From Candidatus Zhuqueibacterota bacterium (GTDB taxonomy: Bacteria; Zhuqueibacterota; Zhuqueibacteria; Residuimicrobiales; Residuimicrobiaceae), in NCBI GenBank assembly GCA_963169875.1, contig CAUJEL010000012.1, forward strand, positions 1 through 32,950: a DNA stretch of 32,950 nt. The letters run 5' to 3'. The translations under genes were made by a program, and so were the position numbers. Of this stretch, positions 1-21,857 are shown piece after piece; positions within the stretch are counted from its first letter, which is position 1, and every line of letters starts with the position of its first letter. Under the pieces are notes generated by a model that saw only the letters and a program-made list of their open reading frames with translations, was not told the DNA's origin and did not search any database.

Positions 1-205
1 ACGCGGCTTTGATTTATTCGGTAATGGCTACAGCCAAATATCATGATGTCAATCCGGCTTTGTATCTGGAGTATGTCTTCCAGACCATACTGGACTATCC
101 CTTCCACAAATTAGCTGATCTGCTGCCCCAGAACTGGAAGACCCGTTCCCAAAACTAAGCCGCTCCCACTCCTTCCTGGTGGGGTGTGCTTGGCCGAATG
201 CTTAC
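1..205 (+). mobile_element. Right end of an IS66-family insertion sequence (partial)
   Basis: The window opens inside an IS66-type element. The transposase C-terminus ends at 158. The last bases of 181-205, read on the minus strand, start GTAAGCATTCGGCC; IS66-family terminal repeats typically begin GTAAGC, so I place the right boundary at 205. IS66 elements usually make 8-bp target duplications, which would make 206-213 (acaatatt) the duplicated target. The left end lies outside the window, so the duplication cannot be confirmed here. Confidence 0.65.
3..158 (+). CDS. IS66 family transposase, C-terminal fragment
   Basis: An open frame enters from the left edge and gives 51 residues before a TAA stop. 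It contains LIYSVMATAKYHDVNPALYL, then LADLLPQNWK near the end. This matches the C-terminal tail of IS66 transposases (usually S-L-x-E-T-A-K, then Y-L-x-x-V, then LLPWNW). Only this tail is visible, so nothing can be said about the catalytic DDE residues or whether the element is active. It sits 47 bases before the inferred right terminal repeat, a normal arrangement for this family. Confidence 0.7.
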   Translation, partial: AALIYSVMATAKYHDVNPALYLEYVFQTILDYPFHKLADLLPQNWKTRSQN

Positions 206-683: not shown

Positions 684-782
684 GTCTAACCCTCGGCTGT
701 TGCGGATTGCCGCTGGAGCAGTTTTCTATTTGAAGTTCGGTTTTCACATTACCGCGGCAACCGCAAAGCCGTCGCGTTGTGC
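684..782 (+). other. attC-like recombination site A (integron cassette)
   Basis: A 99-bp imperfect inverted repeat. The left end GTCTAAC (684-690) matches the attC R'' consensus RYYYAAC; the right end GTTGTGC (776-782) is close to GTTRRRY and can pair with it apart from one mismatch. The arms CGGCTGTTGCGGATTGCC and CCGCGGCAACCGCAAAGCCG pair nearly perfectly, leaving three unpaired bases all on the left arm, like the extrahelical bases that orient attC recombination. It lies 52 bases after the DUF1963 stop codon. No other gene occupies 632-846. Confidence 0.55.
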
Positions 783-846
783 GTTTAAAAATCTGCTTCA
801 TTTTCAGAAACCATGGTTCGGGCAGGAGCTAGAAGGAGGGCGGCTC

Positions 847-954
847 ATGAGAGCTTTGGATGAGATCCAAATGGGTGAGCACAGCCAGAGTGAACTCATC
901 CCAACTGCCTGCAAGGAATGTGATAATGAGCATGCATTTTGCATGCAAGTTTGA
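847..954 (+). CDS. Possible 35-residue Cys-containing small protein
   Basis: An ATG at 847 follows a strong ribosome-binding sequence (GAAGGAGG, 830-837). It opens a short frame starting MRALDEIQMGEH and ending with three cysteines in C-K-E-C-D-N-E-H-A-F-C, stop at 954. I recognise no family. The case rests only on the ribosome-binding site and on filling otherwise empty sequence between attC-like site A and the next gene. It could be the remnant of a longer cassette gene. From 955 to 1032 only the upstream region and ribosome-binding site of the next gene are visible. Confidence 0.25.
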   Translation: MRALDEIQMGEHSQSELIPTACKECDNEHAFCMQV

Positions 955-1032
955 TTATAGTCCGGATAATACCAACTGGATAGAGTCGGTGGGAGCACTT
1001 GTAGTCGGATTTATTGCAGGAGAATTGACCTG

Positions 1033-3192
1033 GTGAGGTGTCAAAAATATTTTCTACTCCAGTTGCTTTTTCCGATCATCCTCTTTGCACAAATGACGGG
1101 ATGGCAGGAGAATAAAGAGATTTTTATGCCCAGCGGAGTCGAGATCGACTCCCTCAATATCGATTTCCAGGTCCTGCACTGGAATGGCGATAACTGGCCC
1201 GATATTCTCATCAACGAAAACGGCCGCCTGAGCTATTTCCAGAATATCGATCCTCAGGATTATATTTTCGAAAAGTGCAATCTCACACTTCCAGCCTTAC
1301 CACCACATTCCTTTCCAGATTGGCTCAACGAAAGTAATAACTTTTGTGCCGCGGACATGGATTATGACGGCGATTGGGACCTGGTCGCCGACAGCCTGCT
1401 ATTCTACCGAAATACCGGCTCCAATGCCCATCCCGCCTGGCAGCTAGAGCCCGCTTTCTTTGAAAACCGGATAGACTCGGTCGATCTGGAATACACCCGG
1501 GGGATCTGCAATGATGATTTCACATTTTTCGATTTTGAGGGAGATGGCGATCTCGATCTCCTCGCCAGGCATCGCGATATATCCGGGGCGACCGAGGGGT
1601 ATACTTATCTCTTCCTGAACGACCCGCTACGTCAGCGCTGGATTTTTAGGGAACGTTTTGCATGGCTGTTTTTCCGTGGCAGCGAGAACATCCATCTGGC
1701 TGATCTGGACAGCGATGGTGATCCCGATCTCTTCACTTCATGGAAAGCTTACGGAGGTATGTCCATGAATGATATATTCTGGTTCAATCTATATCCCAAC
1801 CTGGGTACCACCATCCAGCCCGTCTATGAGAATCAGCCCACCCTGAGCGGCAGCTTCATACGTCCCCATTCCAGGTATATAGTCAGCGATCAGTTTTATG
1901 ACATCGATAGCGATGGTGATCTGGATTACATCTGGCTCACCCCCAGCCGTCATCTGGATATTCGTTTCAATGAAACCCTGAGCAGCCAGGCTTTCGTCTT
2001 CACGGATAAAAATATCCGGCTCGGCCGCCTCTGCGTCACGGCCAACGCCCAACCGGCGCTCTTCCGGGAGCCGGATCGCCCATATCCTTCCCTTATCGTC
2101 AGTGAAAACTATGACGACTGGTACTGGGCTTCGGATATGTTTATGCGTCTTTATGGGCGCCTGCTCGAATTGGGCACCTGGGGTGCCTTCAACCGGGACT
2201 TTGCAACCATGGACAATTTCTGGGCCCTGAACTGGAACGAGTTTAATATCCGGAGTGATCAAATGAAGACAGTCTGCTATGACCACTGCATCACTTTCCC
2301 GGAGAATCCAGCCGGCAGCATCGCGATCTCTTATCGATACTATTATAATTGGGAGCACAAGGGCTACAAGGTCCAGTTCTTTCGCCGTAAGAGCGTCGGG
2401 GATTCTGCTTTCTGGGAGATGGATTCCACTCTGGCCGCCTTTTCCTTGTCACCCAGGCTCTATAACCGGCCAGTGCTGTCGGACATAGATCTTGATGTTT
2501 CGCCGGAGTTGTTCATCCGGGAGGACACAGTCTATACCTGCTTTAAAAATTTTGGCACACTAGAGGCAACGGACTGGCAGCCCTCGCCGGACGGCCTCGA
2601 GGGAATCGCGGAGCGTAGTCATTTCCACCTCGCCATGGCGGACCTGGACAGCGATGGCGATCCCGATATGATCTTCGGCGATGCAGATGGCTCGCTACAC
2701 TACTACCGCAATCTGCGGCCGGTCTCCCCTAATTGGCAGCATATGCCCGAGGTTTTCGCGGGATTGGATGTGGGCGAGGATGCGGCCCCAGCCATCGGTG
2801 ATGTAGACCAGGACGGCGATATGGATTTGATCGTGGGCAACCGCATCGGTCAGCTCTACAGCTTTCAGCTGCCGGAATATCTACAGGTGGAGAGGAAAAA
2901 GGCGAAGCTGCCAGCGGAATTTCGCCTGCTGCCGGCCTTTCCCAATCCTTTCAACAACACAACGACAATTGCCATTGAAACCAGTAAGAAGGAATGGCTG
3001 GAGATTTCTGTCTTAAACTCCCGCGGACAGCTCGTTAAAACCCTTCTAAAGAGCGAGATTCCTCCCGGCTTGCACAAGATAGCATGGGATGGTCAAGGCA
3101 GTTCCGGGCAGGTAGCTTCCTCAGGACTCTATCTCATCTACGCTCGCAGCCGGACGATGACGCACCAAATTAAAGCCATTCTGTTGAAATGA
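1033..3192 (+). CDS. Secreted FG-GAP/VCBS-repeat protein with T9SS C-terminal sorting domain
   Basis: 719 residues from a GTG start chosen because AGGAGA lies 9 bases upstream and the frame is closed just before it. Residues 1-19 form a signal peptide (KYFLLQLLFPIILFAQ). The body holds at least five calcium-loop repeats of the form D-x-D-x-D-G-D-x-D, near residues 108, 166, 223, 297 and in the 530-600 region, each followed by a strand ending in Y-x-N; this is the FG-GAP/VCBS beta-propeller pattern. The last about 80 residues are a T9SS tail: FPNPFNN, a G-Q-L-V-K strand, W-D-G-x-x-x-x-G, S-G-L-Y, ending ILLK. By family the tail is recognised by the type IX machinery and removed on export. The propeller probably binds a surface ligand, but no substrate can be inferred. 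Confidence 0.85.
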   Translation: MRCQKYFLLQLLFPIILFAQMTGWQENKEIFMPSGVEIDSLNIDFQVLHWNGDNWPDILINENGRLSYFQNIDPQDYIFEKCNLTLPALPPHSFPDWLNESNNFCAADMDYDGDWDLVADSLLFYRNTGSNAHPAWQLEPAFFENRIDSVDLEYTRGICNDDFTFFDFEGDGDLDLLARHRDISGATEGYTYLFLNDPLRQRWIFRERFAWLFFRGSENIHLADLDSDGDPDLFTSWKAYGGMSMNDIFWFNLYPNLGTTIQPVYENQPTLSGSFIRPHSRYIVSDQFYDIDSDGDLDYIWLTPSRHLDIRFNETLSSQAFVFTDKNIRLGRLCVTANAQPALFREPDRPYPSLIVSENYDDWYWASDMFMRLYGRLLELGTWGAFNRDFATMDNFWALNWNEFNIRSDQMKTVCYDHCITFPENPAGSIAISYRYYYNWEHKGYKVQFFRRKSVGDSAFWEMDSTLAAFSLSPRLYNRPVLSDIDLDVSPELFIREDTVYTCFKNFGTLEATDWQPSPDGLEGIAERSHFHLAMADLDSDGDPDMIFGDADGSLHYYRNLRPVSPNWQHMPEVFAGLDVGEDAAPAIGDVDQDGDMDLIVGNRIGQLYSFQLPEYLQVERKKAKLPAEFRLLPAFPNPFNNTTTIAIETSKKEWLEISVLNSRGQLVKTLLKSEIPPGLHKIAWDGQGSSGQVASSGLYLIYARSRTMTHQIKAILLK

Positions 3193-3410
3193 GTATCTGG
3201 CGTGATCTGAATGATCACTACTTCAAGATTAATGATTTTCTTCTTTTAGCAATTGAATTTTGATTTTGCTGGGGTTCAAAGAAACCGAGAAAATTATCTT
3301 CTATCAGGCGTCTGATACCCAGCCATTTCCCCATTTCCAGAGCGCCAGGCAATATCCGGTATTCTTATGGCTCCTAACTTGCCGATAAATTAGATAGCTC
3401 AGATAAAAAT
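3193..3410. other. Non-coding stretch after the VCBS gene
   Basis: AT-rich sequence with no convincing gene on either strand. No strong terminator hairpin follows the stop at 3192. Together with the doubtful 67-residue frame (3411-3614), attC-like site B and the 107-bp repeat, it makes up the 686-bp gap up to the DUF6064 gene. Confidence 0.4.
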
Positions 3411-3614
3411 ATGATTCGTAAGATAATAAAATATATTCGGTCTAATTCTGCTTGGTCAGAAAAAGAAGAAGTCATCGTCAAATTAATTTTGACAACAAGT
3501 GTTAGCGATTGGAGGCAAATAATACTTGAAGGCAAGCTTCCAAGTAGGCCTCAATCCATTTATGATCCTATTAATGGTGGTCAAATATTAATTAAGGCGG
3601 CAGCAATAAGATAA
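3411..3614 (+). CDS. Small hypothetical protein (67 aa), possible cassette ORF
   Basis: An AT-rich frame beginning MIRKIIKYIRSNSAWSEKEE and ending KAAAIR. I recognise no family. There is no clear ribosome-binding site upstream (gataaaaat). Its stop lies only 3 bases before attC-like site B, the normal place for a cassette gene, which is the main reason to list it. It may equally be chance coding in AT-rich DNA or the tail of a longer lost gene. Confidence 0.3.
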   Translation: MIRKIIKYIRSNSAWSEKEEVIVKLILTTSVSDWRQIILEGKLPSRPQSIYDPINGGQILIKAAAIR

Positions 3615-3617
3615 AAC

Positions 3618-3714
3618 GCCCAACCCTCGGCTTGTGCGGATAGCCGCTGGTTCATTTGTGATTTTTAGAGGCATTGAAATTTGCCGCGGCTACCGCACAG
3701 CCGTCTCGTTCAGC
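3618..3714 (+). other. attC-like recombination site B (integron cassette)
   Basis: A 97-bp imperfect palindrome. The left end GCCCAAC (3618-3624) fits RYYYAAC; the right end GTTCAGC (3708-3714) is a degenerate GTTRRRY. The left arm CGGCTTGTGCGGATAGCC pairs with CCGCGGCTACCGCACAGCCG, again with three unpaired bases on the left arm at the same places as in site A. Relative to site A several base pairs differ on both arms at once, preserving the fold. This compensatory change is good evidence that the hairpin itself is selected. Confidence 0.55.
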
Positions 3715-3733
3715 CCTCGCGTTGCTCGGGCTG

Positions 3734-3840
3734 AATCGCGGCGCTGAGCATCGAGTGCCTGAGCCTTCGCTCCGCTCAGGCTGAACCAGGCACTCGAGCA
3801 GACACGCCCCCTGCGGGGGCTGCTGCTCAGCGCCGCGATT
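3734..3840. repeat. 107-bp cloverleaf palindromic repeat, copy 1
   Basis: The element is bounded by perfect 17-base inverted arms AATCGCGGCGCTGAGCA and TGCTCAGCGCCGCGATT. Inside are a second stem (TCGAGTGCCTG with CAGGCACTCGA) and a third (GCCCCC-TGC-GGGGGC), so a single strand can fold into a cloverleaf. Copy 2 at 13617-13723 has the same length and orientation with only two differences. About 12 bases of similarity continue upstream (TTGCTCGGGCTG here). A separate hairpin (TTCAGCCC with GGGCTGAA) overlaps the left edge of this copy only. There is no open reading frame inside. Confidence 0.85.
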
Positions 3841-3878: not shown

Positions 3879-4514
3879 GTGAATTTTACATTTTCTGAAT
3901 TTCTTGAAATGATGGCCAGATATAATAATCACTATTGGCTAATGCTTCCGATCAATTACTCCCTTTGCATTATCGCTATATTATGTTCACTTCGCAAAAC
4001 CGAATATTCTAGCCGCATTGTAACGAGCGTGTTGGCAGTGCTCTGGCTGTGGACAGGAGTTGTTTTTAATGGGTTAGTGTTTAGCGAAATATCGCCTCGA
4101 GCGATAATTTTTGCTGCTGTGTTCGTTTTCGAAAGTATGCTGTTAGTGTTTTATGGTTTTTACATGAGCGAACTAATTTTTCGCGTCAGAGCAGATCTGA
4201 TTGGAGCAGTGGGCTGGGCATCGATCCTTTATGGATTACTTGGCTATCCACTAATAGCATCGTTGTTGGGACGTGGTTATCCACAATCTCTAGTGGTAGG
4301 GTTAGCTCCCTGTCCTACTGTAGTATTCACATTAGGCTTACTGTTCTGGAGTGAGCGAAGGCTTTCTAAAGCAATATTAGCAATTCCTTTGTTCTATGCA
4401 CTTGTAGGAGGAGCGATGGTCAGCTCCAAGGGCGTTGTTGAAGACCTTGGTATGATTATCATAGCAATGGCAATGATCGGCGTCGTTATTTATAGAGACC
4501 GTATACAAGCATAG
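3879..4514 (+). CDS. DUF6064 family integral membrane protein
   Basis: 211 residues from a GTG at 3879, supported by CGGAGG 8 bases upstream. About six hydrophobic spans are visible, with a short N-terminal segment reading FTFSEFLEMMARYN before the first. Diagnostic family features are W-L-W-T-G-V-V-F-N near residue 55 and G-R-G-Y-P then A-P-C-P-T-V-V-F-T-L-G near residues 132-153. An acidic E-D-L-G motif lies near residue 188. The molecular role of DUF6064 is unknown. The gene is flanked by attC-like sites and on the same strand as its neighbours, as expected for a cassette gene. A promoter could lie in the repeat-rich DNA before it, but none is obvious. Confidence 0.75.
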   Translation: MNFTFSEFLEMMARYNNHYWLMLPINYSLCIIAILCSLRKTEYSSRIVTSVLAVLWLWTGVVFNGLVFSEISPRAIIFAAVFVFESMLLVFYGFYMSELIFRVRADLIGAVGWASILYGLLGYPLIASLLGRGYPQSLVVGLAPCPTVVFTLGLLFWSERRLSKAILAIPLFYALVGGAMVSSKGVVEDLGMIIIAMAMIGVVIYRDRIQA

Positions 4515-4541
4515 TGATAGCGTCAAAGTCAATAGTCTGGC

Positions 4542-4668
4542 TCCTAACCCCGCCGTTGCACCCGACGCGCAGCATACTGCGGCGGAGTAGTTCGGTTGAT
4601 TTGCGCTCGAAAAGCTGTTAGCGCCTCAAAACTGTCCGAGCGCGCGCCTGAGTGGCCAGGCGTTAACT
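4542..4668 (+). other. Candidate attC-like site C
   Basis: It begins 27 bases after the DUF6064 stop. The left end reads TCCTAAC followed by CCCGCCGTTGCACCCGACGC. The right side reads GCGCGCCTGAGTGGCCAGGC then GTTAACT. The outer arms pair only partly (GACGCGC with GCGCGCC; CTAAC with GTTAA), so this is weaker than sites A and B. A second GTTAGCG at 4617-4623 is another possible right end. I call it from position and layout more than from a clean fold. Confidence 0.4.
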
Positions 4669-5916: not shown

Positions 5917-5973
5917 GGCCAACTAGCACGCAACTGCACCTGACGCCGCGTCGGGGCAGTACAGGTGTTGAAT
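5917..5973 (+). other. attC-like site E downstream of the methyltransferase
   Basis: A 57-bp site starting 21 bases after the methyltransferase stop. The left end GGCCAAC is close to RYYYAAC; the right end GTTGAAT (5967-5973) is an exact GTTRRRY. Between them CAAC-TG-CACCTG pairs with CAGGTG-TTG, leaving a small bulge on the left arm. The length matches the short end of the known attC range. Bases 5974-6084 contain no recognisable gene. Confidence 0.45.
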
Positions 5974-6084
5974 TTAGCCATCTGTAAAAGAGCCTCATCT
6001 TCCCGAAACACGTTGCGGAAACGAATGAATGGATGGCCCTGACGACAAGACCGTGACGCGAGTCGAAGACAAGGGAAGAGCAAC

Positions 6085-13441: not shown

Positions 13442-13616
13442 TGTGCGGTTTATAGCATGGATAGGGCAAAGCTTTCAGAGCTGGCCAAGATCGTTCCTGA
13501 CTTTGTCAGCAGGGAATCCAGGAATCACAAAATGCAGCATCTGACCCCCGCATGCAACAAACTCGCTACACTCGACGCTGATGCCGCGCGATCCAGGCTT
13601 ATCTTTGTTCGGGCTG
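13442..13616. other. Gene-free gap before cloverleaf copy 2
   Basis: No gene or complete attC-like site is visible. With the 107-bp repeat and the short toxin-antitoxin leader it makes up the 361-bp gap between the beta-helix gene and the antitoxin. Confidence 0.4.
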
Positions 13617-13723
13617 AATCGCGGCGCTGAGCATCGAGTGCCTGAGCCTTCGCTCCGCTCAGGCTGAACCAGGCTCTCGAGCAGACACGCCCCCTGCGGG
13701 GGCTACTGCTCAGCGCCGCGATT
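13617..13723. repeat. 107-bp cloverleaf palindromic repeat, copy 2
   Basis: Same length, orientation and outer arms (AATCGCGGCGCTGAGCA / TGCTCAGCGCCGCGATT) as the copy at 3734-3840, with two substitutions. One breaks a pair in the inner stem (CAGGCTCTCGA instead of CAGGCACTCGA); the other lies next to the right outer arm. About 12 upstream bases are also shared (TTGTTCGGGCTG). Flanking sequence beyond that is unrelated to copy 1, so the unit has moved or been copied as a discrete piece. It lies directly before the toxin-antitoxin pair. Confidence 0.85.
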
Positions 13724-16357: not shown

Positions 16358-16385
16358 TTCCCGAGACGCCTGGGCATCTCGGGAA
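16358..16385. terminator. Stem-loop between convergent genes
   Basis: TTCCCGAGA (16358-16366) pairs with TCTCGGGAA (16377-16385), and the loop can extend the stem with GCC/GGC. It lies between the stop of the DJ-1 gene and the stop of the opposite-strand vWA gene, so it could end transcription from both sides. There is no long T-run on either strand, so termination strength is uncertain. Confidence 0.5.
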
Positions 16386-21039: not shown

Positions 21040-21292
21040 GTCATATCCTCCTGAAAAAAGGACGAATTTGCGGGCGGCTCTTTAATCCGTGTCGCTGCAG
21101 ATCAGGAATGTTCGATACATGTTCAGGTGAACTGGGGGAATGAGTCCAGCGGCATAATGAAATGTAGGATAAAATTGCATGCAATACAATTTATATTTTG
21201 TATCAGGCTAAATTGTTTATCAGGTGTTGAATCTATGCAATTAAAAGTCCGCAACGCCGTTCCGTCAACCGCAAGCGACAGAATGCGGATGC

Positions 21293-21345
21293 GTGCCAGG
21301 CACGTGCCCGGCACCCAAACCCTTATGCGGGAGGGTGCCTGGCAC
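21293..21345. repeat. REP-like hairpin with GTGCCAGGCAC / GTGCCTGGCAC arms
   Basis: Perfect 11-base inverted arms GTGCCAGGCAC (21293-21303) and GTGCCTGGCAC (21335-21345), with a second GTGCCCGGCACC beside the left arm and GGGAGGG beside the right. GTGCCAGGCAC-type palindromes are a widespread dispersed-repeat theme in bacteria. It begins 8 bases after the ferritin stop, so it may also work as its transcript end, although there is no T-run. Apart from this hairpin, 21040-21353 shows no gene. Confidence 0.55.
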
Positions 21346-21353
21346 CCCTGCTG

Positions 21354-21857
21354 TTAACGGCTCGCTCTGGTTAGCATCATGGTTAAATCCTCAAGCAGGG
21401 CCTGAAGATCCTCCTCATGCTGCACTTCATCCTGCAGAATTTGCACCGCCATGTTGTAGGTGACGGGGTCTTTGAGCCCTACTTCCTGGACGAGTTTATT
21501 GTAGACGGAAATGGCGCACTGTTCGCCCTTGATATTTTGTTCAAGAATGATCTGCACAAAAGGATCTGCAGGCTCATCATAGCCGCAATTGGTCATCTTG
21601 AACCACTGCTGCGGCGTGGTCAGGGGTTTTCCGCCCAGCTGGATGATACGATTGGCCACCATGTCCGCATGGCGCAGTTCGTCGGCAGCGTGCTGCAACA
21701 ATTCCGTGATGACGTTGTCTTTCATGGGCCCGGAAATGATTTTCGCGCCGAGCCAATACTGATAATACGCCAGCCATTCGTCTGCAAAAGCCCTGTTGAG
21801 CAGATCCAGAACATGATTGATGTCGATACCGACAATTTCACGACCTTTGGTTCCCAT
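21354..21857 (-). CDS. DPSL-type (Dps-like) ferritin, thioferritin-like
   Basis: 167 residues from ATG 21857, chosen because AAAGGAG lies 6 bases upstream; the longer frame from 21911 lacks a ribosome site. A four-helix ferritin bundle is indicated by Glu27 (A-D-E-W), Glu60-x-x-His63 (D-E-L-R-H), Glu112 (G-E-Q-C) and Glu144-x-x-His147 (D-E-V-Q-H), the diiron ligands. Cys91 (T-N-C-G-Y) and Cys114 (G-E-Q-C-A-I) match the paired cysteines near the metal site that define the DPSL/thioferritin branch. By family it forms a 12-subunit cage that uses peroxide to oxidise and store iron, protecting the cell from oxidative damage. It stands alone on the minus strand, with a hairpin 8 bases after its stop. 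Confidence 0.82.
   Translation of the reverse strand: MGTKGREIVGIDINHVLDLLNRAFADEWLAYYQYWLGAKIISGPMKDNVITELLQHAADELRHADMVANRIIQLGGKPLTTPQQWFKMTNCGYDEPADPFVQIILEQNIKGEQCAISVYNKLVQEVGLKDPVTYNMAVQILQDEVQHEEDLQALLEDLTMMLTRASR

Follow-up and report, generated by a model that had tools for sequence, protein, structure and literature searches.

Two hairpins in a bacterium of the KSB1 lineage as probable attC sites of a sedentary chromosomal integron

Two sequences, A and B, lie in the window, the whole stretch of 32,950 nucleotides that we analysed (contig CAUJEL010000012.1), and an earlier note made from the letters alone described them as attC-like hairpins. They raise the question of whether they are recombination sites of an integron, which integrase would act on them, and whether their sequence changes follow the folded single strand. 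The hairpins were found at 684-782 and 3618-3714 and, as the note had claimed, have one fold in common: both are imperfect palindromes folding to hairpins with an unpaired central spacer. Their parts are as follows.

684..782, + strand: attC site A (65.2 bits with attC model R2), beginning with R'' GTCTAAC 684-690 and spacer CCT 691-693
694-716, + strand: left arm of A, with stem CGGCT 694-698, extra G 699, TTGCGG 700-705, extra A 706, TTGCCGC 707-713, extra T 714 and GG 715-716, the loop coming next
752-782, + strand: right arm of A 752-771, spacer TCGC 772-775 and R' GTTGTGC 776-782
776..777, + strand: predicted crossover G|TT of A, placed by the attC consensus (PMC3053210)
3618..3714, + strand: attC site B (67.7 bits with R2), beginning with R'' GCCCAAC 3618-3624 and spacer CCT
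3628-3648, + strand: left arm of B, with stem CGGCT 3628-3632, extra T 3633, GTGCGG 3634-3639, extra A 3640, TAGCCGC 3641-3647 and extra T 3648
3684-3714, + strand: right arm of B 3684-3703, spacer TCTC 3704-3707 and R' GTTCAGC 3708-3714
3708..3709, + strand: predicted crossover G|TT of B; the TT and all that follows to 3840 are part of a dispersed palindromic repeat

Single-strand DNA folding gave z-scores of -4.4 and -4.1 for site A and of -3.2 and -3.1 for site B (+ and - strand, respectively), and 0 or 1 of 200 shuffles was as stable as either site. In a generic scan for attC architecture A scored 47.5 and B 49.0; 1.63 Mb of dinucleotide-shuffled control sequence gave four hits of 36 or more, the best at 38.5 and none at 40 or above. 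Both R'' boxes fit RYYYAAC at 7/7 positions, and both R' boxes fit GTTRRRY at 6/7 with the GTT intact. A search of the window against Rfam returned zero families at gathering score. The two sites are about 75% identical and are therefore not recent duplicates. Only two stem pairs differ between them, T-A to G-C (TTGCGG/CCGCAA in A, GTGCGG/CCGCAC in B) and T-A to A-T, and both are compensated, so the claim that stem differences occur on both arms together stands. The claim that the same three bases stay unpaired on the left arm was right about the positions, which are equal (699/706/714 and 3633/3640/3648), but not about the first base, which is G in A and T in B.

These features are those of attC sites of sedentary chromosomal integrons, such as the V. 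cholerae VCR, and of class 1 cassettes. A and B resemble them in the RYYYAAC and GTT boxes, the unpaired central spacer and the variable terminal loop, and in having extra bases six apart on the R''-L'' arm with a bottom-strand T (PMC2727003, PMC3053210); with three extra bases each they are like VCR2/1 (PMC2727003, PMC3053210). They differ from them in their R' boxes, at 6/7 to consensus, and in the bottom-strand extra base nearest the central spacer, usually G, which is C in A and A in B. N6 separates the first two extra bases, and read on the bottom strand these are T-N6-C in A and in a further site, C, described below, and T-N6-A in B. Larouche and Roy found excision to be best with extra bases spaced by six and being T and G or T and C (PMC3053210), so A and B, with T-N6 on the bottom strand, have the spacing and form that integrases excise best. 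The note had assigned strand selection to all the unpaired bases. That role is a published one, although Bouvier et al. attribute it mainly to the first extra base, the three not being equal in this respect, and found integration to depend little on which base stands there (PMC2727003).

The surroundings of A and B are those of gene cassettes, each ORF lying upstream of its attC in the same orientation.

3..158, + strand: C-terminal end of an IS66 transposase (PF13817, E=2.1e-9), at the contig edge
179..631, + strand: 150-aa ORF of the cassette ending in site A, with zero Pfam matches and its stop codon 52 bp ahead of attC A
777..3708, + strand: cassette between both crossovers, 2,932 bp and unusually long
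1033..3192, + strand: 719-aa protein in this cassette, with FG-GAP repeats, a match to FlgD_ig and, below threshold, one to the Por secretion tail
3411..3614, + strand: 67-aa ORF (start and stop checked, zero Pfam matches) ending 3 bp ahead of attC B
3879..4514, + strand: 211-aa DUF6064 ORF, downstream of site B

The 3-bp gap between the 67-aa ORF and attC B is the usual spacing of gene and attC. On the IS66 transposase side the array is cut off at the contig edge, and on the other side the generic scan found no intact attC after the DUF6064 ORF in the window. Two stretches of the window, 4538-4640 and 5918-5990, look like broken attC sites, with boxes and without matching arms, and suggest that the array once reached further right of site B; on account of its broken look, 4538-4640 was left out of the attC count. 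Sites less than 4 kb apart are counted as an attC cluster (PMC9668308), and A and B lie within that distance with zero intI beside them, in the manner of a CALIN, an attC cluster lacking an integrase. The likeness ends at the level of the genome (a 5.0 Mb draft of 215 contigs), where an integron integrase with a homologous site was found on another contig, C111. At least nine further attC sites of the same anatomy lie on other contigs, a count that comes from models and selected stretches, so that sites with long loops may have gone unseen; G, H, I and J escaped model R2 in the whole-genome search.

C111:5190-6500, + strand: intI, a single open frame (TIGR02249, 354 bits against a cut-off of 265)
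C111:4131-4229, - strand: site C, 84% identical to A, about 1 kb from intI in canonical orientation
C111:621-702: site D, following site C in the same array
Contig C4: sites J, G, I and E, four in one orientation with genes in between, including a Sde182-like gene between I and E; an ADP-ribosylglycohydrolase gene comes after E
Contig C153: sites H and F
Contig C41: site L, partly decayed

Transcription of intI runs away from the cassettes, which occupy the opposite strand; there, reading away from the gene, come two ORFs, site C, three ORFs, site D, a repeat and an ORF. This order is the canonical integron layout. Between sites A and C four stem pairs have changed, each with compensation on the other arm. 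Another stretch of this contig, C111:3240-3370, has a perfect stem and was not counted as an attC, having neither extra bases nor GTT. The encoded protein aligns to the V. cholerae integrase (2A3V) with E 2e-67, through the integron-specific insert and with conservation of the catalytic residues R, K, HxxR, H and Y, and it is like VchIntIA also in being divergent from the cassettes. With an IntI above cut-off, a site adjoining its gene and the further sites of the genome, the attC-like hairpins of the note can be called attC: we hold it to be highly probable that A and B are the attC sites of cassettes, that these belong to a sedentary chromosomal integron in this KSB1-lineage bacterium, and that IntI would recombine their bottom strand at G|TT. 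When the stretch is single-stranded, its bottom strand would fold into the hairpin. By analogy with published integrons, IntI would then bind the half-sites R and L made by the fold, would read the extra bases and so pick the bottom strand, and would cut between G and TT, excising or inserting the cassette. A and B themselves can confidently be added to a known kind of site, the integron attC. What is gained is the placing of a working-looking integron with textbook attC anatomy in the KSB1 lineage; we did not find integron, attC and KSB1 named together in the papers searched. Less ordinary are two things around the sites, namely the duplicated DNA-binding domain of the integrase and the repeats at the crossovers, and both may bear on the choice of partners by the integrase and on the origin of cassettes.

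Unlike VchIntIA, the C111 IntI has 436 aa and carries an N-terminal extension. In a profile comparison this extension matched the normal core-binding domain with E 1.9e-5 over 66 columns, and Pfam gave a weak SAM_4 match within it; it is a second SAM-like core-binding domain. In a tree of 21 rows the long IntI form a fully supported clade that holds the C111 protein, KSB1-lineage relatives and a Kiritimatiellota protein, and the closest named integrase matches were from a candidate division KSB1 MAG (57%) and another bacterium (55%). We did not find an integron integrase, an N-terminal extension and attC discussed together in the papers searched. Between intI and the first ORF no attI could be clearly called. 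Just upstream of the intI start, at C111:5155-5177 (L011), lies an inverted repeat, CTGTATAT-N7-ATATACAG, possibly an operator or part of attI.

The long IntI of C111 is the most likely enzyme for A and B. No other full IntI was found in this genome, where the remaining TIGR02249 matches are weak and below the cut-off; its gene and A and B are on different contigs of the draft. Alternatively, the sites could be attC of a decaying cluster whose former short IntI has been lost, the long IntI being a neighbour with another substrate. Among the 60 genomes of the class, own included, 28 have integrases at E 1e-60 or better and ten have A-type sites, all but one of the latter in the same order. No attC was found in the flanks read around long-type IntI genes of relatives (L077, about 17 kb; L034, 10 kb; L033, 3.3 kb); at the intI loci of relatives in general, model R2 gave almost nothing and the generic attC scanner did better. 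In a genome of the same family (G005) an array of attC sites comes after a short-type intI, and the stem arms of one of these sites equal those of our sites G and H. A genome of the same genus has an A-type site and no IntI found at E 1e-60 or better. The flanks free of attC, the short-type intI of G005 and the same-genus genome favour a lost enzyme; the G005 array counts for the attC reading of our sites as well. They are set against an intact long IntI, with site C, 84% identical to A, about 1 kb from its gene in canonical orientation and D next to it, and we consider a lost short enzyme unlikely. The long IntI of C111 thus stays the candidate that we prefer.

The note had concluded that the changes in the stems point to selection on the folded strand and not on sequence, and we compared further copies. 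Ten sites could be aligned arm to arm and have a common layout, 7-3-5-1-6-1-6+: a 7-nt R'', a 3-nt spacer, 5 bp, an extra base, 6 bp, an extra A and at least 6 bp, then a variable loop, the right arm, a 4-nt spacer (3 in E) and GTT. The central spacer is 3/4 nt in nine of the ten and 3/3 in the decayed E; the decayed sites also include F and I. Changes on both sides were seen at 14 of the 17 stem pairs, with 43 compensated, 2 wobble and 13 unpaired cells, the unpaired ones coming from E, F and I plus one or two in D and J. The covariation score of the ten sites was 0.584, compared with a shuffled mean of 0.177 (none of 500 shuffles was as high) and at most 0.132 in slid controls. We then widened the comparison to 24 sites that are similar in sequence and come from ten genomes. 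Here too covariation exceeds every shuffle, but in a plain count unpaired changes are at least as frequent as compensated ones, since some half of these copies are decayed, with two or more broken pairs. One reading is that the wider set holds intact sites together with remnants, as is normal in old arrays. The conclusion of the note is thus borne out by the ten sites, whose covariation greatly exceeds that of shuffles and slid controls, and is mixed in the 24; paired changes dominate among intact sites, and their dominance is lost when decayed copies are counted in. The note had named further copies with unpaired changes as often as paired ones as a ground for refutation, and its conclusion withstands this only with the decayed sites set aside.

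The arms of a palindrome can correct each other, and compensatory changes might for that reason stem from repair or template switching between the arms and not from selection on the folded strand. Such correction would, however, erase the extra bases, whereas two left-arm extra bases hold their position in 10/10 aligned sites, the second always being A. We regard arm repair as a very improbable source of the changes and retain the folded strand as the probable target of selection.

The second of the less ordinary features was seen at 5 of 11 attC sites, where the base that follows the crossover (G|TT) is the first of a dispersed palindromic repeat. Three unrelated families are involved, the first of which, P1, starts there at sites B, D and G.

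3709..3840 of the window, + strand: repeat P1, nested hairpins running TTCAGCC...GCGATT, starting at the first base past the crossover of site B
L011 490-623, - strand; L014; L017; window 13605-13723: further P1 copies
L048 9093-9120 (C4:31092-31119, at the crossover of site I) and window 16358-16385: palindrome family TTCCCGAGACGC...GCGTCTCGGGAA
C41:34397-34419 (L075, L108): REP-like repeat TTCGTAGTTCCGGCTTTAGCCGG with GTAG, starting at the crossover of site L

The genome has 28 matches to P1 and the same-genus genome 21, and the three copies at 99-100% identity all start right after an attC crossover. A perfect palindrome, TTTCCGAGACGC...GCGTCTCGGAAA, takes that position at site I; the TTCCCGAGACGC...GCGTCTCGGGAA family has 9 matches at 7 distinct places in the genome. 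The REP-like family of TTCGTAGTTCCGGCTTTAGCCGG has about 74 matches genome-wide, with covarying stems. A genome so rich in dispersed palindromic repeats lends some credit to the idea that A and B are themselves a REP- or MITE-like palindrome merely resembling attC. Against it, A and B have attC boxes, spacing and extra bases, have a common orientation 3' of genes and belong to a genome in which an IntI gene adjoins such a site; P1, a true dispersed palindrome, is at noise level on R2 (E of 0.1 or worse). We give a dispersed repeat in attC guise next to no weight and keep to A and B as attC sites.

Five exact adjacencies of repeat and crossover compare with 0.0002 under random placement, a rough figure given that the copies are not independent; in other genomes, 18 sites were inspected and a repeat at the crossover was seen at none. 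Outside the array, YG stands before most copies of two families, and the copies of TTCCCGAGACGC...GCGTCTCGGGAA other than that at site I have YG before them, which means that either the repeats insert at YG|TT, offered by attC, or the integrase joins attC to repeats, two possibilities that we cannot separate. It is a distinctly improbable proposal that the dispersed repeats are off-target partners of IntI, an attC being joined to the folded repeat at G|TT so that adjoining genes become the fronts of cassettes; such joining, if true, would let one see how cassettes are born, a question of long standing. IS1111 elements targeting attC or REP sequences (PMC11187229) and REP transposases (PMC8266576) have been described, and the available portions of these two papers contain no mention of repeats at attC crossovers, which could be the part that is new. 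The idea that P1 is an attC too was dropped, model R2 giving it 12 to 15 bits with E above 0.1. One more palindrome of the window, a long and imperfect one that is not an attC, is intergenic at 21263-21376 and passes a looser hairpin scan.
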